Shown here: positions 27,577 through 55,722 of the stretch, piece by piece
Numbering within the stretch: the stretch's first letter is position 1
How the letters are laid out: every line of letters starts with the position of its first letter
Origin: an uncultured Lachnospiraceae bacterium
Lineage (GTDB): Bacteria; Bacillota; Clostridia; Lachnospirales; Lachnospiraceae
Direction of reading: 5' to 3'
Assembly: GCA_902788555.1 (NCBI GenBank)
Contig: CADAKQ010000008.1
Location: 17,552 to 81,551, forward strand
Length of the DNA stretch: 64,000 nucleotides
Notes under the pieces: generated by a model
Database searches by the model: none
The model's input: only the letters and a program-made list of their open reading frames with translations
Told to the model about the DNA's origin: nothing
Made by a program: the position numbers and the translations under genes

Positions 27577-27633
27577 AAACAGGGTGCTAAGCATAGCGTT
27601 AGGTGGTAATGTGCTATGCGAGCACCCTGTTTT
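27577..27633. repeat. Dispersed palindrome, copy A
   Basis: Outer arms AAAACAGGGTGCT/AGCACCCTGTTTT are perfect over 13 bp. The inner core GCATAGCGTTA...GTGCTATGC is the shared family core in reverse orientation. It lies 36 bp after the CPBP-family protease stop and 20 bp before the end of the convergent flavoprotein gene, so it probably acts as a bidirectional terminator. Confidence 0.85.
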
Positions 27634-27652
27634 TACTAAGTTTGAAAGCCTC

Positions 27653-28129
27653 TTACGACTCATTCACCAGTTTGCCGGTCATATGCTCTATGGTCAGTTC
27701 AAAACATTGAACCCGTGGCAGCGCATTGGCAAGCTCTTTTTTCATGTATTCTTCATCATCGGTGAACTTTTGGCAAAGCTTTGTACAGATTTCTCTTGCT
27801 TTGTCATAATCGCTTATAAGCTTAATTCTTCCAAATACTATAACACTGTTTATATTAAGTGCCCATTCGCCTTCTTTTCTGTAGCCCTTATCATACACAC
27901 AAAAGCTTACCTTATCGCAAGCTTTTATGGCATCAATTTTGTGCCCTTCCTTTGCGCCGTGAAAATAAATCTTATTATCCTCTTCCGAATAATAATGGCT
28001 TATCGGAATACCGTAAGGATAGCCGTCGTCACCTATCATCGACAGTACGCCTCTTGGCTCATCCTTAAGAATTCTTATACATTCTTCTTTAGTTATCTGT
28101 TGTTTAAAACGTCTCATTTTTCTAAACAT
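27653..28129 (-). CDS. Pyridoxamine 5'-phosphate oxidase family protein
   Basis: A 158-residue FMN-binding split-barrel protein. The minus-strand product includes RGVLSMIGDDGYPYGIPISH, YYSEEDNKIYFHGAKEGHKI and DKVSFCVYDKG, the pattern of the NimA/PNPOx-like flavoproteins seen widely in Clostridia. Such proteins bind FMN and may reduce small substrates; the substrate is unknown. No clear SD is visible (GGTGATATG precedes the ATG). It converges on the CPBP gene with palindrome A between them. Confidence 0.85.
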   Translation of the reverse strand: MFRKMRRFKQQITKEECIRILKDEPRGVLSMIGDDGYPYGIPISHYYSEEDNKIYFHGAKEGHKIDAIKACDKVSFCVYDKGYRKEGEWALNINSVIVFGRIKLISDYDKAREICTKLCQKFTDDEEYMKKELANALPRVQCFELTIEHMTGKLVNES

Positions 28130-28281
28130 ATCATCACCCTGTGTAGTTTATTTTATAGCCTTATTTTATTTCTTTGATATGGTTTATGTCAAATACTAAT
28201 TAAGCGAGTTGTTTTTATTCTCTATTGCAGTATATGAGTTTTCTTTTAATCTTGCATATGGTTGCATATTTGGTGTTTTCC

Positions 28282-28310
28282 TTGACATAAGCTGCCTTAT
28301 GGAAATAAAA
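28282..28310 (+). promoter_or_regulatory. Promoter for the GH3 chimera gene
   Basis: TTGACA (28282-28287), 17 bp, ATAAAA (28305-28310). It probably belonged to the flavodoxin-like gene whose first codons now start the fusion. Confidence 0.55.
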
Positions 28311-28345
28311 TAATGCTATATATCTAACAAGGGGAGTTTATAAAA

Positions 28346-30349
28346 ATGGGAAATATAAAGACAGTTATTATTCATGGACAGAATCATAAAGGTTCGACCT
28401 ATCATATAGCGCATGAATTGGCAAAGAAAATATCGGATATTAAAAAGAAAGTATTACCGTTTTTTTTATCTCTGTCACTGGGATTATCTCTTGCAGCATG
28501 CGGAAAAAACAATAATACGGATGATGAAAAAAACACCGCAGAGATTGGCAGCGAGGAAACCGATGTGTCACAGGATGATACATCTTTAGATGCGACGGAA
28601 GAAGTAACGGAAGATACGGGTTCGTTAAATGACTATAAATATTTGCAGTATGCAGATATGACGGCGGAGGAGATAGTCGCATCACTTACACTTGAGCAAA
28701 AGGCATATCAGATGGTTCAGCCGGCATGTTATATGACAAGTCCTGAAGCTATGAAAGAAAATTGTTATGGAAGTGTCCTTTCAAGAAACTTTTATTATAA
28801 CTATGAGGAGTGGCAGGAGTATGTAGATGAATTTCAACAGATGGCAGTTTCATCTTTCGCAGGCGTGCCGTTTATTTATGGACAGGACGATGTACATGGA
28901 GTAAATTATGCAATAGATACTGTTATATTTCCTCACAATATAGGAATGGGAGCAGCAGATGATGAAGATCTTATGTATCAGATAGGGCTTATAACTGCCG
29001 ATGAGGCGAAGTTATGTCATATGCTATGGAATTTCTCGCCTTGTGTAGCACAGTCGGTTGACCCAAGATGGGGAAGAACCTACGAAAGCTATGGTTCTGA
29101 TATAGAAACAATAACAAGACTCAGTACAGCTTATACGAAGGGATTACAGGATGGCGGAGTTATAGCCTGTGCTAAACATTTCTTTGCAGATGGAAATGTA
29201 GTCTATGGAACCGGCGAGGATTCGGATGTTGACAGGCTTATAGACAGAGGAGATGCGGTCCTTACTGAAGAGCAGATTGATGAATTGCTTTCTGTCTATA
29301 AGGCTCAGATAGATGCAGGTGTAAAGACTATAATGATAAGCCACTCATCCTTAAATGGTGTGAAGATGCACGAAAATAAGGAATATATAGATATACTTAA
29401 GAATGATTACGGCTTTGAGGGCTTTATAGTAAGTGATTGGAATTCGGTACAGAATACCTCTCCTGAAACCTATTATGAGCAGGTAGTTACAGCTGTAAAT
29501 TCAGGCATTGATATGCTTATGGAGGTAGACCGTTATGATGAGGCAGCAGGAATAATTGTTGAAGCGGTTGGAAACGGCGACATATCCGAGGAAAGAGTTA
29601 ATGATGCAGTAAGACGAATAATTCAGGTTAAAAAGGATATAGGAATAATTGAAGATCCGTTTTGCGATAATATGGAGACTGTTCAGGATGAAACCGGATC
29701 CGAGGAGTATAGAGATGTTGCTGAAAGAGCAGTAGAGGAAAGCCTGGTACTCGTTAAAAATGAGAAAGATGTGCTGCCTCTTAAGAGCGGTACGAGTGTC
29801 TATATAATGGGGCCGGCAGCAGATAATGATGTATCGCAATGTGGCGGCTGGACTATGGATTGGAACGAAAGCTACCTTGAGGATATACCGGGCTTAACAA
29901 CCATAAGAGAAGGCTTCGAGCAAAAAGCGGATGAATATGGAATAAATGTAATAACCAAAGAAGCAGATGCTGAAAATGCCGATGTTATTCTTTTGGTAGT
30001 AGGCGAACAGGCTTATGCAGAGTGGAACGGTGATACAGCGGATATCGACTTGTGTGGTCCGCTTGGTCTTTCAGGTAATGCTTCGTCGATAGAAAAAGCC
30101 AAGGAATATGGCAAGCCGATAATTACCTGTATCGTGGCAGGAAGAAATGTATTTATAGATGATTATATAGAGGATTGGGACAGCGTGGTAATGTGCTATC
30201 TTCCGGGTTCTGAGGGACAGGGAGTGGCAAATGTGCTCTGTGGCAAAAGCGATTTCACAGGCCGACTTCCAAGTCCATGGTATAGTTCCGTAGAACAAAT
30301 TGAATCCGGAAATGCATGGCTTGAAAAAGGCTATGGACTTACATATTAA
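28346..30349 (+). CDS. Glycoside hydrolase family 3 lipoprotein with a foreign N terminus
   Basis: The main part is a GH3 beta-glucosidase-type enzyme. It has VPFIYGQDDVHGVNYAIDTV, SVDPRWGRTYESYG, CAKHFF and the nucleophile Asp364 in GFIVSDWNS, then the second alpha/beta domain with ESLVLVKNEKDVLPL. A lipoprotein signal peptide, KKKVLPFFLSLSLGLSLAAC, occupies residues 33-52. Residues 1-32 (KTVIIHGQNHKGSTYHIAHE) instead match the start of NADPH-dependent FMN reductase/flavodoxin-like proteins. No ATG lies between 28346 and the signal peptide, so the GH3 gene seems to have lost its own start by deletion and been fused in frame to another gene's promoter, SD (GGGGAG) and first codons. Export with a 32-residue extension is uncertain. 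Palindrome B follows the stop. Confidence 0.85.
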   Translation: MGNIKTVIIHGQNHKGSTYHIAHELAKKISDIKKKVLPFFLSLSLGLSLAACGKNNNTDDEKNTAEIGSEETDVSQDDTSLDATEEVTEDTGSLNDYKYLQYADMTAEEIVASLTLEQKAYQMVQPACYMTSPEAMKENCYGSVLSRNFYYNYEEWQEYVDEFQQMAVSSFAGVPFIYGQDDVHGVNYAIDTVIFPHNIGMGAADDEDLMYQIGLITADEAKLCHMLWNFSPCVAQSVDPRWGRTYESYGSDIETITRLSTAYTKGLQDGGVIACAKHFFADGNVVYGTGEDSDVDRLIDRGDAVLTEEQIDELLSVYKAQIDAGVKTIMISHSSLNGVKMHENKEYIDILKNDYGFEGFIVSDWNSVQNTSPETYYEQVVTAVNSGIDMLMEVDRYDEAAGIIVEAVGNGDISEERVNDAVRRIIQVKKDIGIIEDPFCDNMETVQDETGSEEYRDVAERAVEESLVLVKNEKDVLPLKSGTSVYIMGPAADNDVSQCGGWTMDWNESYLEDIPGLTTIREGFEQKADEYGINVITKEADAENADVILLVVGEQAYAEWNGDTADIDLCGPLGLSGNASSIEKAKEYGKPIITCIVAGRNVFIDDYIEDWDSVVMCYLPGSEGQGVANVLCGKSDFTGRLPSPWYSSVEQIESGNAWLEKGYGLTY

Positions 30350-30364
30350 AATACTTTAGCTAAT

Positions 30365-30458
30365 AGACGGTTCCCGGATTTACATTTTTGGTGCTAAGCA
30401 TAGCGTGAGCGTTAGCGAGCTATGCGTGTACCATAAAATGTAAATCCGGAAACCGTCT
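30365..30458. repeat. Dispersed palindrome, copy B
   Basis: Outer arms of about 27 bp (AGACGGTT, CCGGATTTACATTTT and GGT, with two small mismatches) enclose the family core GCATAGCGTGAGCGTTAGCG then GCTATGC. It starts 15 bp after the GH3 stop. From 30459 to 30630 I see only AT-rich sequence with TATAAT boxes near 30531-30541 and a weak ATTCATAT/ATATGAAT dyad. Confidence 0.85.
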
Positions 30459-30630
30459 TTGTTGAATTTAGGTTATAGCTTAATTCTATAACCTGCCATA
30501 TTATTTAAGAATTATGCAAAATCAGTTGATTATAATATAATAACCACAACAGGAGAGAACTGAATTCATATATAAATTTAATATGAATTTGGTAATGAAT
30601 TAGGACATATATGAAAAGAGGGTGGTTATT

Positions 30631-31260
30631 ATGAAACAGATTCTTTGCTTTGGTGATTCAAATACATACGGATATATACCACAGACCGGAAAGCGATATC
30701 CATGGGGAGTAAGATGGACAAGTATTTTAAATGAAGAGCTTGGACTTGATAGCTATAGGGTAATTGAAGAAGGTTTATGTGGCAGAACAACAATATTTGA
30801 AGACCCTTTAAGAGACGGAAGACGTGGTACAAAGCTTCTTCCGTTACTTTTGGAAACCCATAATAATCCGGATATAATAATTATTATGTTAGGTACTAAT
30901 GATTGTAAAACAGTTTATAGAACTACACCTGAAATAATCGGAAAGGGTGTACAAAAGCTTTTACAACAGATAAAGAATTATTCAGGTGAAAGTAAGATAT
31001 TACTTATATCACCGATACATCTCGGAGAAAAGGTTTGGGAAGAGGGGTACGATACGGAATTTGCGCCTGAATCGGTGAAAATATCAAAGGGGCTTGCCGG
31101 TGTATATAAAAGGATAAGTAAACAGGAAAACATCTATTTCCTGGATGCATCGAAATATTCCTCGCCAAGTGAGGCAGACCAGGAGCATATGGATGAGACA
31201 GGACATAAAAAGCTTGCCAAAGCAATAATAAGTAAAATCAAGGAAATCGAAGCCGCTTAG
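30631..31260 (+). CDS. SGNH/GDSL hydrolase family protein
   Basis: A cytoplasmic SGNH-fold esterase of 209 residues. ATG 30631 is chosen over the in-frame GTG 30622 because GAGGG lies 8 bp upstream. Block I is CFGDSNTYGY with the nucleophile Ser, block II has GLCGRTT, block III is IIIMLGTNDCK and the catalytic Asp/His pair is near the end (DQEHMDETGHKKLA). There is no signal peptide. The C-terminal codons form the left arm of the terminator. Confidence 0.9.
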   Translation: MKQILCFGDSNTYGYIPQTGKRYPWGVRWTSILNEELGLDSYRVIEEGLCGRTTIFEDPLRDGRRGTKLLPLLLETHNNPDIIIIMLGTNDCKTVYRTTPEIIGKGVQKLLQQIKNYSGESKILLISPIHLGEKVWEEGYDTEFAPESVKISKGLAGVYKRISKQENIYFLDASKYSSPSEADQEHMDETGHKKLAKAIISKIKEIEAA

Positions 31261-31277
31261 GCTTGATTTCCTTTTTT
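31242..31277 (+). terminator. Intrinsic terminator overlapping the SGNH stop codon
   Basis: GGAAATC-g-AAGCC pairs with GGCTT/GATTTCC and ends in TTTTTT. The left arm encodes the last residues of the hydrolase. Confidence 0.8.
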
Positions 31278-31362
31278 CTTGAAGTAATATAAAAAATGTT
31301 ATAGAATAATTCCATAAAAAATTAAACATGAAACGTACATTATTATGAAAGGCGGTTTTTAG

Positions 31363-31881
31363 ATGACTGACAGAGAATTTTCGTCAGCCATAGATTTGCT
31401 TTTAAATGGGGATAAAACAGGACTGAGGATGATATATGAAGCATATATGAAGCTTATTTATGCTGTTATATATAACACGGTTCAAAATAAAGAAGAGGCA
31501 GAGGATATAACATCGGATTTTTTTATCAAGCTGGTTCGTGTAGCGAGTACCTTCAGAAAGGGAAGTCCTCACAAAACATGGCTCGTAACCATAGCAAAAA
31601 ATATGGCGATTGATGAGATAAGAAAAAGAAAAAATACTGTTGCGGAATATGAAGAACCGCATACAGAAGGAATAGAAAATGAAGCTGTTTTGTCACAGGA
31701 TATGAAGCAGGCAATGAGGTCTCTTAAGCCGGAAGAAAAAGAAATTGTAGATATGAAGCTTATAGGACAGCTTAAGTTTAAGGAGATAGCGAAGCTTACG
31801 GGCAAGCCGATGGGAACGGTCACTTGGCTGTATAACGAGGGAATAAAAAAACTAAGGAGGTGTCTTTCTAATTATGAGTAA
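31363..31881 (+). CDS. ECF-type RNA polymerase sigma factor
   Basis: A 172-residue sigma-70-family protein with only regions 2 and 4. Region 2 spans about residues 20-90 (IYNTVQNKEEAEDITSDFFI, then VRVASTFRKGSPHKTWLVTI), and region 4 about 115-165 (LKPEEKEIVDMKLIGQLKFK, then EIAKLTGKPMGTVTWLYNEG). It overlaps the anti-sigma candidate by 8 bp, the typical translational coupling of such pairs. TGAAAC at 31328-31333 upstream resembles an ECF -35 element but lacks a clear partner. Confidence 0.92.
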   Translation: MTDREFSSAIDLLLNGDKTGLRMIYEAYMKLIYAVIYNTVQNKEEAEDITSDFFIKLVRVASTFRKGSPHKTWLVTIAKNMAIDEIRKRKNTVAEYEEPHTEGIENEAVLSQDMKQAMRSLKPEEKEIVDMKLIGQLKFKEIAKLTGKPMGTVTWLYNEGIKKLRRCLSNYE

Positions 31882-39571: not shown

Positions 39572-39680
39572 AATGGGGTAGATTTATGTCAGCTTATTTT
39601 ACAGATGTTCGCATAGCACGTTGTCATTTAACGCTATAATAAGAACCTGTAAAACAGGCTAAATAAAAATCTACCCCATT
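39572..39680. repeat. Dispersed palindrome, copy E
   Basis: Outer arms AATGGGGTAGATTT/AAATCTACCCCATT enclose further pairing (TTTTACAG/CTGTAAAA) and the family core CGCATAGCACGTTGTCATTT then AACGCTAT in forward orientation. It lies between the VWA gene and the convergent HTH gene. Confidence 0.8.
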
Positions 39681-40127: not shown

Positions 40128-42173
40128 ATGAGAAAAAACAGGTTTATAAAAAGGCTTTTTTCATTTGCAATTATTTCGTCTATGGCAGTTAGCTTCTGTG
40201 GCTGTGGTAACGTAAATAATAATTACGGAAAGTCTGAAATGAGTGCAAGCAGTACACAAAGCGATGCATCTAAAGATGAGGACATGTCTTATGATGAGGA
40301 GGTTAGACCGCAGGATGATTTTTATGGCTATGTGAATAAGGACACTTTGATTAATCTTGACCTTCATTATGGAGAGGCGTACGGTGGACCGGCAGCGGAC
40401 ATTATGAATGATGTTGATGCAGAGATAATAAGTCTTGTCAGTGACATAGCAACTTCAAATAAAAGCTATGAGCCGGGTACCAATGAACAGCTCGTTAAGG
40501 ATGCATATATCCAGTATCTTAATCAGGAGGATATAGGTAGTCTTGGTGCAGAGCATTTTAATAAGAGACTTAAGGAGATAAATGAGGCAAAAGATACAGA
40601 CGAGCTTCTTGATATAATCGGTGAGATTGCAAAAGAGGAAGGACAGATCCTTTATTTTGATATCATGATTGAGAGAAACTTCTTCGAATCAGAAAAAAAT
40701 GCCCTTTATATAGATCAAAAGGATTCGATTTTCAACATAGCTCTAAAGGATATATATGAGAGTGATGAGGAAAGACAGATGCTTCGTTCATATGTGCTTG
40801 ATGCGCTTTTGGCTTGCGGAGAGGAGCTTGATGAGGCAGGAAGGAAGGCTGATGATTTTGTGTATTTTGCGATTGATGTGGCAGGTAAGACAGATTATCA
40901 GATTATGGATGCAGAAAATCCTTATGCTTCATTTACATTTTATGAAGAGGATGCTTTTAATGAGATACTTAAAAATTTGGATGCGGATTATTTTGAAAAA
41001 ACCATGGGCATTAAAGATAATCCGTACGGAGGCTGGTATGTAAGAGATAAGGAACAGCTTGCCATGCTTGCCGATTCATTTAACAATGATAATCTTGAAT
41101 GTCTCAAGACCTATCTTATCTGTGATCTGATGAACAGATACAATTATTTTTTGACGGACGAGTATGAGTTTTTAAAGCTTTATGCACCTGTAAGCTATCT
41201 GGCAAAAGAAGAGGAGGCTGCCCTTTATACAAACAGTTTATTGGAGAGCAGAATAAGCGAGCTTTATGCTGATAAGTACTATACGGAGGAAATGGACGAA
41301 GAGCTTACACGTATGTACGAGGACATTAAGGAGGGCTATAGACAGCTTATAAATGAGGCGGACTGGCTTAGTGAGACAACCAGAAAAGGACTGATAAAGA
41401 AGCTTGACAATATGTATTTTGTTAAGGGCGGCGGAACCCCGCACGAGGTGGATAAAAATGATGCAAAGCTTATCGGAGACGATGCCTTTATAACATATGT
41501 AAATGTTAATAAGGATAATTATAATAAAGAGCTTGATATGATAGGTAAGGCACATGATAGATCCGAGCCTATTATGTCTGCACAGACGGTTAATTCCATG
41601 TACGGTATAGACAATTCATTTAATATAACAGTGGCTATTATGCATGCGCCATACTTTGACGAGGATGCGGATTATTATACCAACCTCGGAGGACTTGGGA
41701 TGGTAGTTGCTCATGAGATGGGGCACGCCTTTGATTCAAACTGTATCAACTATGATGCGGACGGTAATTACAATCCCGACTGGATAAGTAGGGAAGACAG
41801 GGATGAGCTTGAAAACAGAATGGATAGAATGATTGAATATTATTCGACATTTACGATTATGGATATATATCATGTAAACGGTGAGCTTACCTGCAGTGAA
41901 AATTATGCGGATAAGGGCGGTATGGAGTGCCTTATGAAGATAGCAAAAACCGATGAGCAAAGAAGAAAAATCTTTGAAAATTATGCTTATATCTGGTGCA
42001 TGATGATTGAGGATACCGTGGCGATGGATAAGCTTCAAACCGATGAACACAGTCCAGAGTGTATAAGAGTAAATGCAGTGCTTTCGTCAACAGATGAATT
42101 CTATGAGCTTTATGATGTAAAGCCGGGGGACGGAATGTATGTGGATCCTGAAGACAGAGTAAGCAGATGGTAA
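40128..42173 (+). CDS. M13 family metallopeptidase lipoprotein
   Basis: A 681-residue M13 (neprilysin/PepO) endopeptidase that cleaves oligopeptides on the cell surface. The signal peptide ends at a Cys-Gly-Cys lipobox (Cys24 or Cys26). The zinc site is HEMGHAFD (His529-His533) with ENYADKGG near residue 591 giving the third ligand, and NITVAIMHAPYFDED is the substrate-groove strand before it. The C-terminal family motif with CRxW is replaced by a short tail (DRVSRW). It is followed 18 bp later by an ABC permease gene with a strong SD, so the two probably share a transcript. Confidence 0.92.
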   Translation: MRKNRFIKRLFSFAIISSMAVSFCGCGNVNNNYGKSEMSASSTQSDASKDEDMSYDEEVRPQDDFYGYVNKDTLINLDLHYGEAYGGPAADIMNDVDAEIISLVSDIATSNKSYEPGTNEQLVKDAYIQYLNQEDIGSLGAEHFNKRLKEINEAKDTDELLDIIGEIAKEEGQILYFDIMIERNFFESEKNALYIDQKDSIFNIALKDIYESDEERQMLRSYVLDALLACGEELDEAGRKADDFVYFAIDVAGKTDYQIMDAENPYASFTFYEEDAFNEILKNLDADYFEKTMGIKDNPYGGWYVRDKEQLAMLADSFNNDNLECLKTYLICDLMNRYNYFLTDEYEFLKLYAPVSYLAKEEEAALYTNSLLESRISELYADKYYTEEMDEELTRMYEDIKEGYRQLINEADWLSETTRKGLIKKLDNMYFVKGGGTPHEVDKNDAKLIGDDAFITYVNVNKDNYNKELDMIGKAHDRSEPIMSAQTVNSMYGIDNSFNITVAIMHAPYFDEDADYYTNLGGLGMVVAHEMGHAFDSNCINYDADGNYNPDWISREDRDELENRMDRMIEYYSTFTIMDIYHVNGELTCSENYADKGGMECLMKIAKTDEQRRKIFENYAYIWCMMIEDTVAMDKLQTDEHSPECIRVNAVLSSTDEFYELYDVKPGDGMYVDPEDRVSRW

Positions 42174-42191
42174 AAGGAGGAAGATAAGAAA

Positions 42192-44654
42192 ATGCGTATA
42201 ATGATAAAGCACACTTTAAAAAATATATTTTCAAAACCGCTTCGAACCTTGCTTTTATTCGTATGTATAGCAAGCTGTTCATTTTCGGCGCTCCTTTGCA
42301 TAGATATGTCCGGTTCGATGGGTTACCTCGTTAAGAATCTGCTTACCCAGGTAACAGGTACAAGTGATATCATCATAACGGATGAGCTTGGAGTGGATGA
42401 AGATAATTTGGACATGGATATACCGGTAAATGCATTGCTTATAACCACAAGACAGGGCGGAAGCATCGAGATACCGGAAGGCTTTTACAACTATTTTCAT
42501 TCGAAAAGCTATACTGTAGAATCTATGGATTTTGATATGGCTTATAAGATGCGTCTTATCGGAGAGGAAATTAACTTAAATGACGATGAGACTGCTATAT
42601 CGAAAAAGCTTGCCGAAAGCTATGGCTTAAGTGTAGGTGATGAGCTTGTCTTATACAGTGATGCGGGTGAGGCTGTTTCATATAAGATTAGTGTGATTCT
42701 TTCTGAAACCGGTATGGCAAACGGAGCAAGCCTTGCACTTCTTAGTAAAGAGGGAATGCTTAAGCTTGATTTTGACGGAGAGCTTATATATGCAGAGGCT
42801 TATATAGATGTTTTGGAGGATGATGAAGCGGACGAGGTTGTAGATATTCTTAAGGAGAGAGACTACAGAGCTGATGTCGGTAAGATTATAGATGACGGTG
42901 AGATTAATGCTATGATTAAGATTATAACGCTTATCTTCCTTTTAATGTTTGCCGTGTGTCTGCTGTTGGTAATATTTGTAACCATGTCTGTTTCGCAGCG
43001 TATAGTCAGTGAACGAATGTCAGTCGTAGGCACATTTAGAAGTCTTGGTTTATCCAACAGATTTACTACAGGATTTTTACTTGCGGAGACAGGACTTTAC
43101 GGTTTGTTCGGAGGTATAATCGGATGCGTTCTTTATAAGATTGTGAGAAGCATTTTGCTTGGAGGTATAATATCGGTTGATTCAAAGGATGCAAGTGTTT
43201 CGGTAGATTTCGGAAAAACCGGAATAGGTGCTTATATAGCAGTTATACTGGTTGCAATTTTCATAGAATGTATCTGTTCGATTAAGGAGATTGTTAAGGC
43301 ATCAAGAACCTCTATCAGAGACATTATATTTGATAACAAGGATACAAAGTATAAGCTTAACAAGGTGTCCTATACCTTAGGTGCAATTATGATTATTGTA
43401 TCAATAGTTTTACTTGTTGTAACCGATAATATTGCAGCTATGTTTATAAGCTTTGCATTTATCATATTTGGAATTTCACTTTTATTTCCGGTTTTACTTT
43501 GCCTTTGTTCAGGTCTTTTGGTAAAGCATTTCGATAAAAGGGAAAAGCCGGTTGCAAAGCTTGCAGCTCTTGAGTGTTTTGCAAGAAAAAGTACGGTGGG
43601 AAGCGGAGTACTTTGTATAACGGCAGCAGCACTTGCGATAGTACTTTTTATATTTGTTACATCGCTCGATGCGATATATGACATAAAGACCTTTGATGCT
43701 GATATCCAGATACAGCTTAATAACGATCAGAAGGCTTCGATGTTTTCTTACATAGATGATTTGGAAGGAGTAAGCGAAACTGAGACAGTTTATAAGGTTG
43801 AGAAAAAAATAACAATAAATGATTATACCAAGGATGTTAATATATTCGGACTTCCTAAAGAAGGTTTTTCTCTTTTGATCGGTATTAAAAATCTGCCTTC
43901 AGATATAGATAACGATACATTTTATATAGACAAAGCAATTGCGGATAAATTTGGTGTAAAAACGGGAGATGAGGTAGAGCTCACCTTTAATTCGGACAGT
44001 TATCTGCCTATAAAAAAGACACTTAAGGTCGGAGGATATATAGACAGTAATAATTATGATTCGACCTCTAATTCAATCGTAATATCAATGGATAATTATA
44101 TAGATATATTTCACGATTATCCGAGTGAAATATATGTAAGATGTGACAACCCTGAAGAGATAAAGTCAAAGATTAAAAAATACTCAGGCACTGTTATATA
44201 TGATGTTCTGACACTGGATGAATATAATGCCACGTGGGAAGGTAAAAAAACAGGTATGAAGTCTATGCTTATGCTTGTAATTATACTGGGAGTTGCGCTT
44301 ACGGTAATCGGTATGATAAGCAATCAGCTTATCGGCTTTGAAGGAAGAAAGCGTGAGTGTGCCGTGCTTATGTCGACGGCTATGACGAGAGATAAGCTTT
44401 CATTTATGTTTATCCTTGAGAGTATGATATCGTCGGCGATTGCACTTATAGTTTCTCTTCCTGCGGCGATTCTGGCATTTATTCCGTTTAGAAGACTTTT
44501 GAATTCGTTGGCAGGCGGGTTCAACGTATCCTATGATATAAAAATGTATGTGGTATTTCTGGTGATTTTGTGGGTAGTATTTACTTTGGTTTCACTGTTC
44601 CCGGTCAGGTCACTCAGGAAGATGAAGATAGCGTTGCAGCTTAAGTATGAGTAG
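42192..44654 (+). CDS. ABC transporter permease, FtsX/MacB type
   Basis: An 820-residue permease with two FtsX modules. Helix 1 (about 16-36) is followed by a large extracellular MacB_PCD-like domain, three helices (about 240-360), then a second helix set near 400-500, another extracellular domain, and the last three helices (about 690-815). YxxxRSIxD-like SRTSIRDIIF near 375 is the cytoplasmic coupling region. Such proteins work with MacB-type ATPases in peptide or antibiotic export, or as sensors. The ATPase gene follows 72 bp later. Confidence 0.88.
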   Translation: MRIMIKHTLKNIFSKPLRTLLLFVCIASCSFSALLCIDMSGSMGYLVKNLLTQVTGTSDIIITDELGVDEDNLDMDIPVNALLITTRQGGSIEIPEGFYNYFHSKSYTVESMDFDMAYKMRLIGEEINLNDDETAISKKLAESYGLSVGDELVLYSDAGEAVSYKISVILSETGMANGASLALLSKEGMLKLDFDGELIYAEAYIDVLEDDEADEVVDILKERDYRADVGKIIDDGEINAMIKIITLIFLLMFAVCLLLVIFVTMSVSQRIVSERMSVVGTFRSLGLSNRFTTGFLLAETGLYGLFGGIIGCVLYKIVRSILLGGIISVDSKDASVSVDFGKTGIGAYIAVILVAIFIECICSIKEIVKASRTSIRDIIFDNKDTKYKLNKVSYTLGAIMIIVSIVLLVVTDNIAAMFISFAFIIFGISLLFPVLLCLCSGLLVKHFDKREKPVAKLAALECFARKSTVGSGVLCITAAALAIVLFIFVTSLDAIYDIKTFDADIQIQLNNDQKASMFSYIDDLEGVSETETVYKVEKKITINDYTKDVNIFGLPKEGFSLLIGIKNLPSDIDNDTFYIDKAIADKFGVKTGDEVELTFNSDSYLPIKKTLKVGGYIDSNNYDSTSNSIVISMDNYIDIFHDYPSEIYVRCDNPEEIKSKIKKYSGTVIYDVLTLDEYNATWEGKKTGMKSMLMLVIILGVALTVIGMISNQLIGFEGRKRECAVLMSTAMTRDKLSFMFILESMISSAIALIVSLPAAILAFIPFRRLLNSLAGGFNVSYDIKMYVVFLVILWVVFTLVSLFPVRSLRKMKIALQLKYE

Positions 44655-44726
44655 GTTGATTAACAGGTTGATTTACAGATTGAGTTTTATATAGGTATAG
44701 TGGTTTAGGATGAAAGGAGCTTTGAT

Positions 44727-45398
44727 ATGAGCAGTATGATAGAAGTAAAAAATGTAAGTAAGACCTTTGGTAAGGGCGGCAGTGAAAATAAGGTTTTGAC
44801 AGATGCAGGCTTTGAGGTAAAAAAAGGAGAATTTGTATCTCTTATGGGTGCATCCGGAAGCGGTAAGTCAACACTTTTATACCTTATAGGCGGACTTGAC
44901 AGAGAGTTTGAGGGAAATATATTAATTGACGGTGAGGATATAACCGAGATGTCTGAGAGAAGGCTGTCACAGCTTCGGCTCGAAAAGATAGGATTTGTAT
45001 TTCAGTTTTATAATCTGGTTCAGAATCTTAATGTGGAGGACAATATACTTCTCCCTCTTACCGTCAAGGGTAAAAAAAGGTCTGAGCTTGAGCCTGAATT
45101 AAAAGAGATACTTGAGATAACAGGTCTTACAGAAAAAAGAAAAGCCATGCCGGCAGAGCTTTCGGGCGGACAGCAGCAAAGAGTAGCTGTTGCCAGAGCG
45201 GTACTTGGTAATCCGGAGATACTCCTTGCCGATGAGGCAACCGGTAATCTTGATTCGGTATCAGGAACAGAGATTATGAATCTTTTTAAAAAGCTTAATG
45301 AAAAGAAGGGTATAACCATACTTCAGGTTACTCATTCCGCTGATTGTGCAGCGTACGGCAATCGTACCATTAATATTGAAAACGGAAGAATCGTCTGA
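44727..45398 (+). CDS. ABC transporter ATP-binding protein (MacB/LolD type)
   Basis: A 223-residue ATPase with Walker A GASGSGKST, Q-loop VFQFYNLVQNLNVEDNILLP, signature LSGGQQQR and Walker B ILLADEATGNLDS, the last typical of the MacB/LolD/FtsE group. SD AAGGAGC precedes ATG 44727. It pairs with the FtsX-type permease upstream. Confidence 0.95.
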   Translation: MSSMIEVKNVSKTFGKGGSENKVLTDAGFEVKKGEFVSLMGASGSGKSTLLYLIGGLDREFEGNILIDGEDITEMSERRLSQLRLEKIGFVFQFYNLVQNLNVEDNILLPLTVKGKKRSELEPELKEILEITGLTEKRKAMPAELSGGQQQRVAVARAVLGNPEILLADEATGNLDSVSGTEIMNLFKKLNEKKGITILQVTHSADCAAYGNRTINIENGRIV

Positions 45399-45492
45399 TA
45401 CAATTAATTATGTTACAGTAACAAAACTTTTGATTTAAAGTTTTTACGGAATGAGAATTGAAACATAATAAATTATAGATGAGGAACAGTTC

Positions 45493-46203
45493 ATGATTAT
45501 AGCAGTATGTGATGATGAAAAAAAAATAAGAGAAAAGCTTACGGATGCCCTTTACGGATTTTTTGGAAGGCTTGATCTTACCTGCAAGGAATATGCGGAT
45601 GGAGAAGAATTACTGTCTGATATAAAAAAGGGCGTAAGACCGGAGGCACTCTTTCTTGATATTGAGATGCCTGTGCTTGACGGAATGGGTACTGCAGTAA
45701 AATTGCGTGAGCTGGATATTGATATACCTGTTATATTTCTTACCAGTCATACGGAGATGGCCATGGACGGTTATGAGGTATCTGCTTTTAGATTCCTTGG
45801 CAAGCCGGTGGATGAGGATAAGTTAAATAAAACTCTTTCGGATTTGAAGGAAAAGCTCATCGGAGGAAAACACATCGTAATCAGATATGAGGGTGAGGAT
45901 GTCGTTGTTCCGGTGGATGATATAGTATACATAGAGGCACAAAATAATTCCATAAGAATTGTACTTTCAAAAAGAGAATATACCATCCGCGGCAAGCTTG
46001 CCGATATGGAAAAACAGCTTTCACTGATAACAGATTCCTTTTACAGAATACACAGAGGCTATGTAGTAAATTTAAGACATGTGAAAAAGCATCGCGGTAA
46101 TGAGGTCATCGTTTCAAAGGATATCTCTTTACCACTTAGCAGAAGCAGCATGGCTGATTTTAAGATAAAGCTTTTGGAATATGTAAGAAACAGTGCGAGA
46201 TAG
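45493..46203 (+). CDS. LytTR response regulator
   Basis: A 236-residue response regulator of the AgrA/ComE type. The receiver domain has the acidic pair DDEKK near the start, the phosphorylated Asp in LFLDIEMPVLDG near residue 56 and Lys in LGKPVDE near 105. The LytTR DNA-binding domain (about 130-230) has VYIEAQNNSIRIVLSKREY, FYRIHRGYVVNLRHVKKH and SKDISLPLSRSSMADFK. The histidine kinase gene follows. LytTR regulators usually control adjacent export or peptide genes, here the ABC pair. Confidence 0.93.
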   Translation: MIIAVCDDEKKIREKLTDALYGFFGRLDLTCKEYADGEELLSDIKKGVRPEALFLDIEMPVLDGMGTAVKLRELDIDIPVIFLTSHTEMAMDGYEVSAFRFLGKPVDEDKLNKTLSDLKEKLIGGKHIVIRYEGEDVVVPVDDIVYIEAQNNSIRIVLSKREYTIRGKLADMEKQLSLITDSFYRIHRGYVVNLRHVKKHRGNEVIVSKDISLPLSRSSMADFKIKLLEYVRNSAR

Positions 46204-46315
46204 TAAGAGATTACTTGAGATAGAAAAAAACAGTGCAAGATAGGATTTAGGTATTTTAAGATGTTGGACAATCTTTGATAATGTTTCAAAGATTGTGTGA
46301 GATAGGATTAGAAAA
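46204..46315. other. Gap between regulator and kinase with short repeats
   Basis: AACAGTGC(G/A)AGATAG occurs twice (from about 46189 and 46231) and GAGATAGGATT recurs near 46301. A hairpin AATCTTTGA/TTCAAAGATT lies near 46271-46294. No peptide gene is visible. The repeats might be remnants of local duplication or LytTR-type sites. Confidence 0.35.
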
Positions 46316-47686
46316 ATGTTGCAGATAATTTATGATTTGGTTTATTGCCTTATCGAAGGAACAGCATATACTCTTTCAGCCTGGCTGCTTATAACAGGCT
46401 TTTTTGGTTATCCGTTAAAAAAAGTATCACACAGAAAAAATATGCTGATTACGGTTATTAGTATATATGCGATACTAAGTACAGTGCTTTGGGTTGTGAC
46501 GGATAAGCAGCCTTTTGAAACAACGATAAGCGGAGCGCTGGTTTTATTTTTACTTATTTATTTTATCACGCAGCTTTTATGTAAAAAGTTAAAGGCTTTT
46601 TTTATTACGATTACTGCCTTTGAAGTTATAACTGTTCTTTTAAGTATTTTAGATACATTGGATACTATGATTGAAGATAGCATAAATACTCCGGAATATA
46701 TGATAAAGATTACGATGATATTATTGACCTTGTTTTTAATTCTTATAGTATGGAGTTTATCATTTCTTTCGAGCAGGAGAAGAAAAGGGCCAATGGCTTT
46801 TTCTCTGGTTGTGGCAGTTTTTCTGGTGTTTCTTTTGATAGATAATGTTATCTTTTCTGTTCTAAAGATAGACAGATATTCCGATACGGAACCTTTGATT
46901 TCCCTTAGGTTTGTATATAGTGGGGATATGGGCGGCAGGACATACAGTATTATTATGCTTGCCATAACTGTAATCATTTTGCTTATCTGTATACTACTTA
47001 TCATAAAGGAATCTGAATCGATGTATTTTCGTGACAAAAATACCGTAAATGAGTACTATATCGAAGCCCAGAAGGAACACTATGAGGGACTTATAGCTTC
47101 CAATCGTGAGATAAGAAAAATAAGACATGATTTGAAAAATCATACCTACTGTCTGCAGGAGTTATATAAGAGCAAGAGATACGATGAGCTTGGTAGCTAT
47201 ATCGAGGATATGGCAAAGCTGGTTGAGCAGGCAGACACAAGCGTACATGCGGGTGATGAGATAGCGGATGCTATATGTTCGGAAAAGAAGAATAAGGCAT
47301 CTGAAAAGGGTATAACGCTTACGGTTGACGGCAAGCTTTCAGGCGTTAAGCTTTCGGCACTTGATACCTGTACCATTCTTGCCAACATACTTGATAATGC
47401 AATAGAGGCAGTGGAAAAGCTTGATGAAGATAAAAAACACATTGAACTGACATTTAAAAGAAATGAAAACTATATGATAATAACCGAGACAAATCCGACA
47501 CTTAATGAAGTGGATATACGGGATAATATAATAATAACAACAAAAAAAGATAAAGCAAACCATGGTTTTGGAATTATAAACATTAAAGAAACTGCTGAAA
47601 AATACGGTGGCGAGTGTTATCTTACATCATACAAGGAGAAAGAAGACTACTACTTTAAGCTTGAGATAATTTTACCTGTTGAATAG
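46316..47686 (+). CDS. GHKL-domain sensor histidine kinase
   Basis: A 456-residue kinase of the AgrC/peptide-sensing (HPK10-like) group. Six or seven membrane segments fill residues 5-240. The phosphoacceptor His is in REIRKIRHDLKNHTYCLQEL near 265-270. The ATP-binding GHKL domain (about 340-455) has ILANILDNAIEAVEKL as N box and HGFGIINIKETAEKYGGECY as the glycine-rich lid. No good SD precedes the ATG. It forms a two-component pair with the LytTR regulator. Palindrome C begins immediately after the stop codon. Confidence 0.92.
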   Translation: MLQIIYDLVYCLIEGTAYTLSAWLLITGFFGYPLKKVSHRKNMLITVISIYAILSTVLWVVTDKQPFETTISGALVLFLLIYFITQLLCKKLKAFFITITAFEVITVLLSILDTLDTMIEDSINTPEYMIKITMILLTLFLILIVWSLSFLSSRRRKGPMAFSLVVAVFLVFLLIDNVIFSVLKIDRYSDTEPLISLRFVYSGDMGGRTYSIIMLAITVIILLICILLIIKESESMYFRDKNTVNEYYIEAQKEHYEGLIASNREIRKIRHDLKNHTYCLQELYKSKRYDELGSYIEDMAKLVEQADTSVHAGDEIADAICSEKKNKASEKGITLTVDGKLSGVKLSALDTCTILANILDNAIEAVEKLDEDKKHIELTFKRNENYMIITETNPTLNEVDIRDNIIITTKKDKANHGFGIINIKETAEKYGGECYLTSYKEKEDYYFKLEIILPVE

Positions 47687-47777
47687 TGCCGGTTCTTGCC
47701 GGATGACTCAGGTACACGCATAGCGTTAAGCGACAGCGTGCTATGCGTGTACCTGAGTCATCCGGCAAGAATCGGCA
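47687..47777. repeat. Dispersed palindrome, copy C
   Basis: The longest member: arms of about 38 bp (TGCCGgTTCTTGCCGGATGA, then CTCAGGTACACGCATAG) pair with a single mismatch near the base. The core, read on the minus strand, is GCATAGCACGCTGTCGCTTA then ACGCTATGC. It starts one base after the histidine kinase stop. Confidence 0.9.
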
Positions 47778-50881: not shown

Positions 50882-50891
50882 AAAAAATAAG

Positions 50892-50944
50892 AAGGGGCTA
50901 TCGCATTAAGTGAATTTTTCACTACGGCGATAGCCCCTTTTTTT
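50892..50944. terminator. Bidirectional terminator with nested hairpin
   Basis: AAGGGGCTATCGC (50892-50904) pairs with GCGATAGCCCCTT (50927-50939), with a nested AGTGAA/TTCACT hairpin inside and T runs on both sides. It separates two convergent genes. Confidence 0.9.
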
Positions 50945-50964
50945 GAAATTATATAATATATTAA

Positions 50965-52275: not shown

Positions 52276-52328
52276 AAAAGCTCCCTCCTTATATAAAGTA
52301 TAATGCCTTTAAAAAATAAGACCTGTGA

Positions 52329-52357
52329 AGTATACCATATTTATAAATCCTGTACAA
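52329..52357 (-). promoter_or_regulatory. Promoter for the minus-strand GH13 gene
   Basis: Read on the minus strand, TTGTAC (52357-52352), 17 bp, TATACT (52334-52329), giving a leader of about 45 nt. Confidence 0.65.
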
Positions 52358-52373
52358 GACTTTTGACTTCATC

Positions 52374-52403
52374 TTGCATTTCATTTAAACAAAGAGTTAT
52401 AAT
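52374..52403 (+). promoter_or_regulatory. Promoter for the nuclease gene
   Basis: TTGCAT (52374-52379), 18 bp, TATAAT (52398-52403), back to back with the minus-strand promoter. Confidence 0.65.
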
Positions 52404-52457
52404 AAGAATAAATAAAGATTAAATTCTAAATGATAAAAAATCTTATGGAGATTTGAT

Positions 52458-53309
52458 ATGAAGAAGTTTAAGATAATTTTACCAATTATAATACTTGTGG
52501 TTGTTGCTTATATAGTGTTTATTATTATTTCCGGAAAGCAAAATGACGATGACAGACTTGTGATAAAGCGAAGTACGACAGAGCTTTCCGAAGGAAATGG
52601 AGACGGTACTGAAAATGCCTCTCCTATGGATGCGGAAACGAACGATGGGAATCAAAAGACTACGGAAAGCGAAGGAGACTTTTCGCCGGATAATATTTCA
52701 ACTGCAGGAATAACGATAAATGGCGAGGTGGTTCCCGAATACGTGGATGAACCATATGTGCAGATTAATTTTAATGAGCCGTTTTTTACGGAGGATGAAT
52801 TAAAGACAACATCCTTTGAAAGCTTCAGTGAACAGGATGAGCTGGGAAGATGTAAAACAGCAATGGCATGTGTAGGACTTGATATAATTCCTACTGAAGA
52901 AAGAGGAGAGATTGTCGGGGATATAAAACCTGCGGGATGGCATATGGTAAAATATGATGACGTAGTAAGCGGCGGATATCTTTATAACAGATGTCATCTG
53001 TTGGATTATCAGCTTACAGGTAACAATTCCGATGTCAGAAACTTTATAACCGGAACTGAATATATGAATGTTACGGGCATGCTTCCTTTTGAAAACATGG
53101 TGGCAAGATATGTTGAAATGACAGGAAATCATGTTATGTACAGAGTAACTCCATATTATAAAAATGATAATCTCATAGCAACGGGAGTGCTGATGGAGGC
53201 ATATTCTGTTGAAGATGGCGGAATGGGCGTATTTTATAATGTATTTGTATATAATGTTCAGCCCGGTATAGAGATAGATTACAGTACTGGAGAAAGTCGT
53301 TTGAAATAA
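52458..53309 (+). CDS. DNA/RNA non-specific endonuclease, membrane-anchored
   Basis: A 283-residue surface nuclease of the EndA/NucA-like Endonuclease_NS_2 group. Residues 7-27 form a signal anchor (IILPIIILVVVAYIVFIIIS). An Asp/Glu/Thr-rich linker runs to about 85. In the nuclease domain the catalytic histidine is in GYLYNRCHLLDYQLTGNN, where relatives have DRGHL, followed by NFITGTEYMNVTGMLPFENM with the metal-binding Asn. Strep-type relatives degrade DNA during uptake; here nutrient scavenging or competition is equally possible. It has its own promoter. Confidence 0.85.
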   Translation: MKKFKIILPIIILVVVAYIVFIIISGKQNDDDRLVIKRSTTELSEGNGDGTENASPMDAETNDGNQKTTESEGDFSPDNISTAGITINGEVVPEYVDEPYVQINFNEPFFTEDELKTTSFESFSEQDELGRCKTAMACVGLDIIPTEERGEIVGDIKPAGWHMVKYDDVVSGGYLYNRCHLLDYQLTGNNSDVRNFITGTEYMNVTGMLPFENMVARYVEMTGNHVMYRVTPYYKNDNLIATGVLMEAYSVEDGGMGVFYNVFVYNVQPGIEIDYSTGESRLK

Positions 53310-53399
53310 TGGCTTATATAATAAATCAACAAATATTTTATACATCATTTCATTTTCTACATAATATAATGTAAAAAAGACTATTATATAGGTAGATTT

Positions 53400-54410
53400 A
53401 TGGCGTATAAGATAATAGTGGATGCCGGACATGGCGGATATGATGGTGGTGCTTCCTATAATGGAAGGCTTGAAAAGGATGATACATTAAGACTTGCTCT
53501 TGCAGTGGGTAATATACTTTCCGATATGGGTTATGATGTAGAATACACAAGAACATCGGATGTTTATGATTCGCCTGTTCAAAAGGCAAGAATAGGAAAT
53601 GAATCGGGAGCTGACCTTTTTGTGTCAATACATCGTAATTCCTCACCTACTCCTAATACATATAAAGGAGTACAGACCTTAGTCTATGAGGATGTTGGAT
53701 TGAAAGCTAATCTTGCAAGAAGTGTCAATAATGAGCTTGAAAAGGTTGGCTATAGAAATATAAATGTGGTTGAACGTCCCAACCTTGCAGTATTAAGAAG
53801 AACAAAAATGCCGGCCATACTTGTTGAAACGGGATTCATAAATAACGATGAGGATAATGCCCTGTTTGACAACAGCTTTGATGAGACGGCAAGAGCCATA
53901 GCGACAGGCATAGATGATACCATAAGGGCAGCAGGTCTAAAGGCTGTAACGCAGGATGAGACTGCGGAAGCGATAAGCCGGATAGATGATGACAGCATTA
54001 ATAATCTTCCTGAAGAGGAAGATAACAGTATTGAAATAACTGATGAAGAGGAAAGTGGCGTTGACAGCGGTGCTGCTGATGGGGAAATTAATGAACCCGG
54101 TATCGAAAATGTCGGTGAAATACCGGATGATAATTCAAATTACGAAGGCTATATAAAAGATGTGCCGACAGGCGAAAATGATAATAACGATATTTATCAG
54201 CTTCTTGTCGGAATATACAGAACTGCCGGCTCTGCAAATTATCAGATGAACAATCTTATAAACACAGGATATCCGGCTATAATATTTGAAGATGAAGGAC
54301 TATTTCAGGTAAGGGTAGGAACTTATGATAATATAGAGGAGGCACTTATAGCCGCCCGTGAACTGAGAGACAGAGGATACGATACTCTTATTGTTCTGGG
54401 AAATAATTAG
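53400..54410 (+). CDS. N-acetylmuramoyl-L-alanine amidase with SPOR domain
   Basis: A 336-residue Amidase_3 enzyme that cleaves the bond between muramic acid and the peptide stem. The zinc ligands and catalytic Glu sit in IIVDAGHGGYDGGA (His14 region), LEKDDTLRL, LFVSIHRNSSP and LVETGFINNDED. An acidic linker (about 195-260) leads to a C-terminal SPOR domain (QLLVGIYRTAGSANYQMNNL...FQVRVGTYDNIEEALIAARE), which binds denuded glycan at septa. There is no signal peptide, so export must use another route or the enzyme acts on release, as in some spore or prophage amidases. The SD is weak (AGGTAG). Confidence 0.9.
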   Translation: MAYKIIVDAGHGGYDGGASYNGRLEKDDTLRLALAVGNILSDMGYDVEYTRTSDVYDSPVQKARIGNESGADLFVSIHRNSSPTPNTYKGVQTLVYEDVGLKANLARSVNNELEKVGYRNINVVERPNLAVLRRTKMPAILVETGFINNDEDNALFDNSFDETARAIATGIDDTIRAAGLKAVTQDETAEAISRIDDDSINNLPEEEDNSIEITDEEESGVDSGAADGEINEPGIENVGEIPDDNSNYEGYIKDVPTGENDNNDIYQLLVGIYRTAGSANYQMNNLINTGYPAIIFEDEGLFQVRVGTYDNIEEALIAARELRDRGYDTLIVLGNN

Positions 54411-54433
54411 GGGATGTTCCGTTAAAAAAATAC

Positions 54434-54462
54434 TTGACAACGATTTTCTCATGTGGTAACAT
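54434..54462 (+). promoter_or_regulatory. Promoter for rplJL
   Basis: TTGACA (54434-54439), 17 bp, TAACAT (54457-54462). It starts just after the amidase stop and serves the L10 leader. Confidence 0.8.
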
Positions 54463-54467
54463 ACCAC

Positions 54468-54593
54468 ACGATGAGCTGCCGTAGACAGTAGGTGCCGTAA
54501 GGCATAAGGAGTAAACGCCTACCGAGGAAGAATCGTAAAGTCAAATGATTTAACGCATTTTAACTCTCGTGCTACGTAGCATGAGAGTTTTTC
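54468..54593 (+). promoter_or_regulatory. Ribosomal protein L10 leader
   Basis: This mRNA leader is bound by the L10-L12 complex to repress its own operon. ACGAT (54468-54472) pairs with ATCGT (54532-54536) to close the element, which contains the conserved GCCGTAGACAGTAGGTGCCG and the CGCCTACCGAGG strand. A terminator follows within the leader, so excess L10 would end transcription early. Confidence 0.85.
54562..54593 (+). terminator. Attenuator in the rplJ leader
   Basis: AACTCTCGTGCT/AGCATGAGAGTT with an ACGT loop, then TTTCTTTC. It lies between the L10-binding element and the rplJ start. Confidence 0.85.
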
Positions 54594-54644
54594 TTTCGTA
54601 TAAATTTGCAGCTTCATTATAAAAAATACAGGAGGTGCAAGACT

Positions 54645-55133
54645 TTGGCAAAGGTAGAATTAAAACAGCCTATAGTTGAGGAAATCAAAGAAAGCCTCAA
54701 GGATGCAAAGACAGTTGTATTAGTTGATTACCGTGGTCTTACTGTTGAGCAGGATACAAAGCTTCGTAAGGCGTTGAGAGAAGAAGGTATAATCTACAAG
54801 GTATACAAGAATACAATGGTTAAGCTTGCAATTGACGGTACAGAATTTGATTCCATCAAGGATGACCTTGAAGGACCGACAGCAGTAGCGGTTTCAAAGA
54901 CTGATGCAACGGCTGCAGCAAGAGTACTCGCTAAGTTTGCTAAGGAAAATCCTGCTCTTGAAATCAAGTCAGGTATTGTTGAGGGTACTTACTATGATAA
55001 TGCAGGCATCGCAAAGATAGCTACCATACCTTCAAGAGAAGAGCTTTTATCCAAGTTCCTTGGAAGTATCCAATCACCTATCGCAAACTTTGCTCGTGTT
55101 ATTAAGCAGATTGCAGAATCAAAGGAGGCTTAA
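54645..55133 (+). CDS. rplJ: 50S ribosomal protein L10
   Basis: L10 anchors the L7/L12 stalk on the large subunit. The 162-residue product starts at TTG 54645 (read as M-AKVELKQPIVEEIKESL), 9 bp after GGAGG; the longer frame from ATG 54606 has no ribosome site and no family match. VVLVDYRGLTVEQDTKLRKA and VYKNTMVKLAI are typical. L11 and L1 genes, usually upstream, are absent here: the neighbour is the amidase. Confidence 0.95.
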   Translation: MAKVELKQPIVEEIKESLKDAKTVVLVDYRGLTVEQDTKLRKALREEGIIYKVYKNTMVKLAIDGTEFDSIKDDLEGPTAVAVSKTDATAAARVLAKFAKENPALEIKSGIVEGTYYDNAGIAKIATIPSREELLSKFLGSIQSPIANFARVIKQIAESKEA

Positions 55134-55250
55134 AATAAGCCGGGTATATTAAAAGTAGTAAATTACTTTGAAAAGTAAAATGCCGAAGAATAATAAAATA
55201 AAATTATTCGGAAAACAGAAATTAATTTGAAATTTAGGAGGAAATTTAAA

Positions 55251-55625
55251 ATGACAACTCAGGAAATTATTGAAGTTATCAAAGGTTTATCAGTTTTAGA
55301 GTTAAACGATTTAGTAAAGGCATGTGAGGAAGAGTTTGGTGTATCAGCAGCAGCCGGTGTTGTAGTTGCAGCAGCAGGCGCAGCAGACGGTGCAGCAGGC
55401 GGAGCAGAAGAGAAGGATTCATTTGATGTAGAGCTTACTGAGGTTGGTCCTAACAAGGTTAAGGTTATCAAGGTTGTTAGAGATTGTACAGGTCTTGGAC
55501 TTAAGGAAGCTAAGGACGTTGTTGATGGCGCTCCTAAGGTTCTTAAGGAAGGTGCTTCTAAGGAAGAGGCTGAGGACATCAAGACTAAGCTTGAGGCTGA
55601 AGGCGCAAAGGTTACTCTTAAGTAA
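55251..55625 (+). CDS. rplL: 50S ribosomal protein L7/L12
   Basis: The 124-residue L7/L12 stalk protein recruits translation factors. ATG 55251 follows AGGAGG by 9 bp; upstream in-frame codons are not expected. The N-terminal dimer helix ([20 protein letters not shown]), the Ala/Gly-rich hinge and the C-terminal factor-binding domain ([20 protein letters not shown]) are all present. The 117-bp gap after rplJ has a weak CCGAA...TTCGG hairpin near 55182-55211. Palindrome D follows 17 bp after the stop. Confidence 0.97.
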
Positions 55626-55642
55626 TTTTTTGTATAAGCTAC

Positions 55643-55722
55643 GGATAGAATAATAAAACAGGTGCTCGCATGGCACGTTGTCACTTAACGCCATGCTAAG
55701 CACCTGTTTTATTATTCTATCC
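55643..55722. repeat. Dispersed palindrome, copy D
   Basis: Outer arms are perfect over at least 24 bp (GGATAGAATAATAAAACAGG then TGCT, and the complement). The core is CGCATGGCACGTTGTCACTT then AACGCCATGC. It should end rplJL transcription. From 55723 to 55846 I see nothing but AT-rich sequence. Confidence 0.9.

Follow-up and report, generated by a model that had tools for sequence, protein, structure and literature searches.

How can a dispersed repeat keep one and the same centre when the arms enclosing it are nearly perfect complements of each other within a copy and nevertheless change from locus to locus? This question is raised by five palindromes in a contig of an uncultured Lachnospiraceae bacterium (CADAKQ010000008.1, positions 17,552 to 81,551), the whole analysed stretch of 64,000 nucleotides being called the window below. 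A preliminary description had suggested that they were inserted by fold-back copying or into the loops of existing terminators. It is considered here, with a probability of about one half, that the repeat, named F1, is a clade-specific, non-autonomous, MITE- or REP-like palindrome which arrives whole and whose arms then partly co-evolve by hairpin-templated copying.

The palindromes of the window and their family

All five palindromes were confirmed at or near the positions first described, and all are matched by a covariance model (R2; 46 sequences, 68 columns). Genomes of the genus are denoted by G numbers, G000 (2.70 Mb, 88.7% complete) being that of the window. Site 1 covers 27563-27646 on the plus strand (noted before as 27577-27633) and lies between convergent reading frames, with the core GCATAGC-GTTAGGTGGTAATGT-GCTATGC at 27591-27619; it scores 71.7 bits and has ungapped arms of 26 nt (81%). 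Its orthologue is present in G024, and G008 has neither the palindrome nor the end of the upstream frame. Site 2 (30365-30458, plus strand, 71.1 bits) has a core of the GTGAGCGTTAGCGA subtype at 30398-30425 and ungapped arms of 40 nt (80%). Both of its flanks align in G023, where about 1.1 kb of other sequence without an F1 palindrome is found, and only the right flank aligns in G004, G008, G014 and G024. Site 3 (39572-39680, minus strand, 48.8 bits over the model span 39592-39659) has a degenerate core stem and ungapped arms of 14 nt (100%, outer part only); a different F1 palindrome occupies the place in G008 and G024, and an ordinary hairpin, judged by eye, in G004, G014, G016 and G022. Site 4 (47687-47777, plus strand, core at 47718-47746, 74.8 bits) starts immediately 3' of the stop codon of the upstream frame and has ungapped arms of 38 nt (97%); the F1 palindromes found there in G008 and G024 have different arms. 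Site 5 (55643-55722, minus strand), which scores 83.9 bits and has ungapped arms of 24 nt (100%), lies between rplL and rpoB. Among 24 rplL-rpoB spacers compared, F1 is present in G000, G023 and G024 and another core, F2, in G008, the remaining 20 holding an ordinary hairpin terminator as judged by eye. Both core orientations occur, as had been described, with plus at 27577, 30365 and 47687 and minus at 39572 and 55643. A sixth, degraded copy proposed at 1233-1329 had to be discarded as a member of F1: the best model match in 900-1700 reaches only 20 bits, at 1192-1237, and is a different hairpin.

Several other features of the window were observed. The block 40295-47698 is much closer to relatives than its neighbours are (94% identity in G023 and G024, 97% then 91% in G008, 97% over the first 4 kb in G022, 91% then 88% in G004, with adjacent genes at about 75-85%) and is, judging from these identities, a recently exchanged stretch; the palindromes at 39572-39680 and 47687-47777 bracket it. 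Tandem repeats of about 82 bp at 18586-18993 adjoin several inverted TTTAGTCCGTA repeats, and parts of them match G024 DNA at 84%. At gathering score Rfam gave 6S RNA at 4305-4483 and a ribosomal protein L10 leader at 54461-54602, and nothing else in the window.

The family is neither local nor the product of chance. The pattern GCATAGCN{8,25}GCTATGC occurs at 17 places in G000 and its reversed control at none. Across 37 genus genomes (cut-off E <= 0.01) the model gave 86 matches in G024, 72 in G008, 59 in G023, 52 in G000 and 24 in G016, followed by 18 in G015, 13 in G022, 8 in G001, 6 in G034 and one each in G004, G014 and G028; at this cut-off 25 of the 37 had none. The strict tip pattern, sought over genome_contigs, was met in 27 stretches, which belong without exception to four Lachnospiraceae MAGs (RUG10816, RGIG4472, RUG14549, UBA3820), and one exact tip pattern had no match in viral_contigs. 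F1 is judged to be a family of MITE/REP-like palindromes that is new, restricted to one clade and unusual in the evolution of its arms; its hosts are a group of rumen bacteria carrying dozens of copies per genome. A literature search over titles and the openings of abstracts found no publication on it.

The constant tip, the variable arms and a possible role as RNA

The constant part of F1 is a small structured tip, a mini-hairpin bearing an internal loop of the GUUAA/GU or GUGA/GA type; the surrounding 7-bp stem varies through compensated changes, and so do the long arms. Among 154 distinct copies the stem takes 17 forms, GCATAGC in 52, GCATGGC in 41, GCAAAGC in 17, GCAAATC in 16 and 13 further forms in the remainder. 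The loop starts with GTTAA in 102 copies or GTGAG in 37 and ends with GT in 100 or GA in 42. An inner stem of 2 bp is present in 137, and the 7-bp stem is flanked by TAA on the 5' side in 100 and by GT on the 3' side in 106. Because the loop ends are conserved and the stem forms vary, the constant part is understood as a structured tip whose surrounding stems covary. The covariation score of R2 is 0.415 against a shuffle mean of 0.144, and covarying stems are thus combined with conserved loops in the manner of a structured RNA; one inner pair is G-U in 29 of the 46 sequences.

Outside the core stem, the two arms of a copy form a median of 34 Watson-Crick pairs, as against 8 when arms of different copies are combined (154 copies). 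The view that arms differ completely between loci was right as to their being locus-specific and too strong otherwise: they have positioned motifs in common (AAAATGT about 12 nt out, CTGTATA about 20, CTTGTCA about 45-49 and GTGAGCC about 52-54), and some loci share at least 20 bp of arm sequence. The motifs suggest a diverging element rather than unrelated arms.

All five palindromes of the window start 0-35 bp past the stop codon of an open frame (site 1 counted from 27577), but this position, at first described as general, is not kept throughout the family. The 37 copies evaluated in 1.18 Mb of G008 (from 45 rows, one opposite-strand, two tandem and five weak rows being left out) lie between tandem genes in 21 cases, between convergent genes in 7 and between divergent genes in 3, a further 3 falling within short predicted frames and the last 3 at the edges of stretches, which is close to the distribution of intergenic bases and has no clear bias. 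A T-rich distal end is found on the plus strand in 77 of the 154 copies, on the minus strand in 76 and on either strand in 93, the background value being 67 of 300 single stretches, mostly coding. Such ends fit bidirectional terminators for part of the family, and a terminator function is plausible for about half of the copies; judged by position and T-rich ends together, many may double as terminators in both directions. Since the gene context is so near to that of intergenic bases in general, terminator function would not be the whole story.

These properties lead to the thought that F1 might be a structured RNA element, a terminator or stabiliser of mRNA ends with a protein-binding tip, whose arms are complementary purely by selection and compensatory mutation. 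The conserved internal loops with covarying stems, the inner G-U pair and the excess of T-rich ends over the background are what such an element would have. The 3 of 37 copies between divergent genes do not suit it, and Rfam gave no family for the F1 copies of the window at gathering score, ten F1 loci giving only miRNA matches far below that score. How the arms change between orthologues also bears on this account, which is returned to below.

Filled and empty sites and the manner of spread

For 34 copies from other genomes both flanks were present in the 1.178 Mb of G008 DNA compared. By pattern the core was found in 22 of these 34, and the 12 without it derive from 7 sites; at two of the seven, L157 and L216, the coreless state is an extraction artefact, because the alignments show the core in G008. 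Four kinds of change are seen at orthologous sites: presence or absence of the whole unit, loss of one arm, inversion of the core and symmetric change of the arms. Filled and empty alleles, with the entire palindrome absent and the flanks intact, as a mobile element would leave them, were met at L171 and L222. At L171 a long palindrome lies between convergent frames in G024; as judged by eye, the stop codons are 2 bp apart in G008, a hairpin is missing from G014 and G004 and a different one stands in G016, the outer arms in G023 match but do not enclose the tip, and G000 has a short terminator whose outermost 7 bp are those of the long palindromes of G024 and G023. At L222 the whole unit is present in G023 and absent in G000 and G008. 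Insertion is the favoured reading wherever several relatives lack the element, a loss in G008 being also needed or possible at L171.

The short terminator of G000 makes L171 the one suggestive site for the earlier proposal of insertion into terminator loops, in which a tip or short unit would enter the loop of a pre-existing long terminator and the outer arms would be that old terminator. G008 also holds core-less hairpins with perfect stems of 22-30 bp, and at one site of a further core, F3, a second palindrome is nested in the tip in G000 relative to G008 (G024 has no arms there); both would agree with such an origin. Nevertheless, several element-free relatives do not carry the arms, which are missing at L171 (G008, G014, G004) and at L222 (G000, G008). 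F3 sites iii and iv are likewise armless in G024, although their polarity is not established, and the rplL terminators of relatives have other sequences. Loop insertion is therefore held to be improbable as the general origin of the arms.

Fold-back insertion, in which one arm would be the old flank and the other its new inverted copy, has its best likeness in sites with a single arm: G023 (flank 94%) has at site 4 the full right arm, only 9 nt of the left arm and no core, and G008 keeps the right arm and has no left arm at L083 and L014. One-sided deletion, however, explains the same states, and these G008 alleles keep the core, in part at L083 or in full. Moreover, neither arm exists in the element-free relatives of the two clean sites, and the units of the sister clade, described below, carry direct repeats. 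As the step of insertion, fold-back copying is for these reasons most unlikely. As a later process it is supported, with compensated arm changes, core inversion and tandem units of core plus right arm as its footprints; the patterns of filled and empty sites would be marks of hairpin-templated copying after insertion.

Fixed ends and direct repeats come only from sister species. In G001, G015, G028 and G034 the F1 tip CGTTAAGCGNAAGCGTG occupies the centre of a 151-bp palindrome with the ends TAGGYAATTGCGAAACT, and unrelated loci there have fixed terminal inverted repeats in common. Over 151 bp the G015 loci L099 and L108 share 99% identity, and the remaining pairs listed share 85-93%. At 20 fetched loci of G015 and G034 there are 21 MITE units of 52 to 255 bp, and exact direct repeats of 9-15 nt stand at the ends of 10 of them; among the tip-bearing units 4 of 7 have such repeats (9-12 bp), as against 0 of 400 random position pairs. 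The same family of units (L236-L255) contains the F1 core in some members and the F3 core in some.

In the window's clade fixed ends and direct repeats were not recognised and outer motifs are only loosely shared: the TAGGYAATTGCGAAACT ends were not found in G000 with two mismatches allowed, and inspection by eye revealed no direct repeats at the L171 element of G024 or the L222 element of G023. Dispersal by ordinary transposition is nevertheless the best inference, because the sister species hold the same tip in a fixed-ended MITE with direct repeats; by extension from them, the whole hairpin unit, arms together with tip, would spread, or would once have spread, into intergenic sites in the window's clade also. 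As to the mover, a pair of units about 2 kb apart at L236, the only pair so spaced noticed among the G015 matches listed, was considered as a full-length insertion sequence and turned out to consist of two short, separate units flanking ordinary reading frames; no transposase for the TAGGYAATTGCGAAACT-ended MITEs was found among the matches listed.

Like MITEs, F1 is short, non-coding, built of inverted repeats and present in high copy number, and the 151-bp unit adds fixed ends and direct repeats to this likeness; in contrast, the F1 arms of the window's clade are locus-specific, its ends are not fixed and direct repeats are not recognised. The enterobacterial ERIC or IRU palindromes are intergenic and about 100-130 bp long, and to our knowledge have no known transposase. 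Their arms are conserved in sequence, whereas those of F1 vary by locus.

With the small, dispersed palindromes of the REP/BIME/RAYT type (GTAG and CGTC families, PMC3733652) F1 shares a resemblance in some of its outer units and differs in its constant tip and variable arms; in the main text of that article 'clostridi', 'firmicutes' and 'lachnospir' have 0 occurrences. Were F1 a set of REP/BIME elements moved by a RAYT (Y1) transposase, the REP-resembling, GGGGACAGGCACCTTGTCACA-like outer units of some long copies would be accounted for; outer GGGGAC units were noticed in some long copies. A Y1 transposase gene in G027 (L122) has GGGGACGTTTCTTTTGTCAC-type repeats on its sides and is likely a RAYT-REP unit, and Y1_Tnp (PF01797) is present in 8 of the 37 genus genomes, among them G022 (13 copies) and G004 (1 copy) with one match each. 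But it has no match in G000, G008, G016, G023 and G024, the five genomes with the highest copy numbers (completeness 87-97%). This speaks against Y1 as the mover of F1 and makes a RAYT origin very unlikely; the correlation of a transposase with copy number that had been proposed as a check, tried here for Y1/RAYT, does not hold.

The arms after insertion and other cores

The change of the arms was counted in 34 orthologous groups, 31 of them usable, with one pair per site and 1,233 base pairs. Both positions of a pair have changed in 58 cases, pairing being restored in 40 and not in 18, and in 162 base pairs just one of the two positions has changed. Under a register-shift null 30.8 double changes are expected, about half of the number observed. 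With 162 single changes beside 40 restoring doubles, and doubles at only twice the null, copying between the arms would be slow or patchy. The compensated changes could also come from selection on an RNA hairpin; however, among the changes that restore pairing, transversions (22) are no rarer than transitions (18), which speaks against the structured RNA account.

Inversion of the core inside homologous arms was found in 4 of the 34 groups (L194/L150, L202/L178, L008/L020 and L074/L084), and in two further groups the cores are inverted and the arms unrelated. Such an inversion between orthologues would put the complementary strand into the transcript, which again argues against a structured RNA, as does the finding of different elements at one conserved site: L154 and L206 (flanks 97-99%) have different arms and tip subtypes, as do L146 and L212 (one flank 92%). 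On the other side, at L004, L029 and L063 the palindrome is constant except for one loop base in flanks that are 92-96% identical. Selection on RNA structure as the sole source of the complementarity is, on this balance, possible but rather unlikely. Strong purifying selection on all copies is unsupported, element and flank divergence being alike (8.5% and 9.5% over 27 sites, the element being lower in 18 and higher in 9). Mismatches in the outer arms are G-U in 166 cases and A-C in 130, a weak strand bias (per-copy p = 0.07).

Template switching between inverted repeats has two effects, homogenisation of the arms and inversion of the spacer, according to the abstract of PMC8604942, and a similar argument for RNA stems is made in that of PMC8794818. 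F1 has the inverted spacers and may have the homogenised arms; those abstracts concern RNA genes and yeast genes, in contrast to a dispersed bacterial repeat family. Other traces may point the same way. Within the L185/L166 pair no difference is seen over the left 95 nt, whereas about 11 differences and a gap separate the right sides; the arms of the G008 allele pair better. The change could have gone in either direction, and the inner 30 pairs contain only 2 single changes. Tandem units of core plus right arm occur in L079, L157 and L216; the first right arm of L157 repeats the left arm exactly in inverted form and lacks the extra base that the second right arm has, which a 1-nt deletion could explain as well. 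In G023 two whole F1 palindromes stand in tandem (L086:4495-4663); where their arms differ, the two sides have changed in a matching way.

Taking up hairpin-templated copying again, it may be supposed that after insertion, during replication or repair, each arm serves as a template for the other. This mutual templating would keep the arms largely complementary while both drift, and would also flip the tip and yield the tandem copies of tip and arm, and one-sided losses would break some units. The footprints of copying are seen directly in the orthologues, and the polymerase events would be what left them. The tip would be kept because it is needed for hairpin formation or for recognition by a transposase or an RNA-binding factor, and some selection would act alongside the copying.

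How long perfect stems originate and are kept up is an open question in the evolution of RNA and DNA hairpins. F1 offers dozens of orthologous palindromes in related species, with flanks mostly 75-99% identical, and intermediates with an inverted tip, a lost arm, mirrored changes or a tandemly copied arm, in which template switching and selection can be directly measured against each other, so that it can be called a natural test bed for the evolution of DNA palindromes. If the tip is the recognised feature, the repeat would be defined by structure, with an arm sequence that is nearly free.

Two unrelated cores found in these genomes behave like F1. The G008 DNA contains 82 long palindromes with a score of at least 17, a value reached nowhere in 400 kb of block-shuffled sequence; 35 of them overlap an F1 model match, and the F2 core (about 140 nt) and the F3 core (about 90 nt) recur among those without F1. 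For both cores G000, G023 and G024 contain numerous matches, of which many, among those listed, extend barely beyond the core. Among 47 rows, an arm score of at least 16 was reached at 21 of 26 distinct F2 places and in 13 of 20 F3 rows (up to 44/44 perfect), the maximum at 150 random places being 10. The F2 copies at L313:13721-13934 (the rplL-rpoB spacer of G008), L286:513-741 and L290:11439-11649 have perfect arms of 34-44 bp, different between loci, around a conserved core; the F3 copies at L282:2325-2476, L282:3476-3611 and L338 (G000) similarly have locus-specific arms, and the nested palindrome of G000 sits in the tip of the second copy. Beside L009/L031, with the adjacent F1 element as reference, the F2 core points one way in G000 and the other way in G023, and F3 forms the centre of 206-211-bp MITEs bearing ends of the G015 type.

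It can tentatively be imagined, though it is doubtful, that all this belongs to a more general palindrome ecology, in which at least three unrelated cores (F1 of about 45 nt, F2 and F3) would be recognised and spread by structure and not by end sequence, self-complementary but hypervariable arms would be rewritten by hairpin-templated copying, and new palindromes would nest in old tips, the intergenic hairpins growing from inside. L282, with two of the F3 copies, also has a repeat of about 110 bp (L282:1-109), which matches some contigs of G000 and many of G024, frequently close to the end of a contig, and is probably an assembly-breaking repeat.
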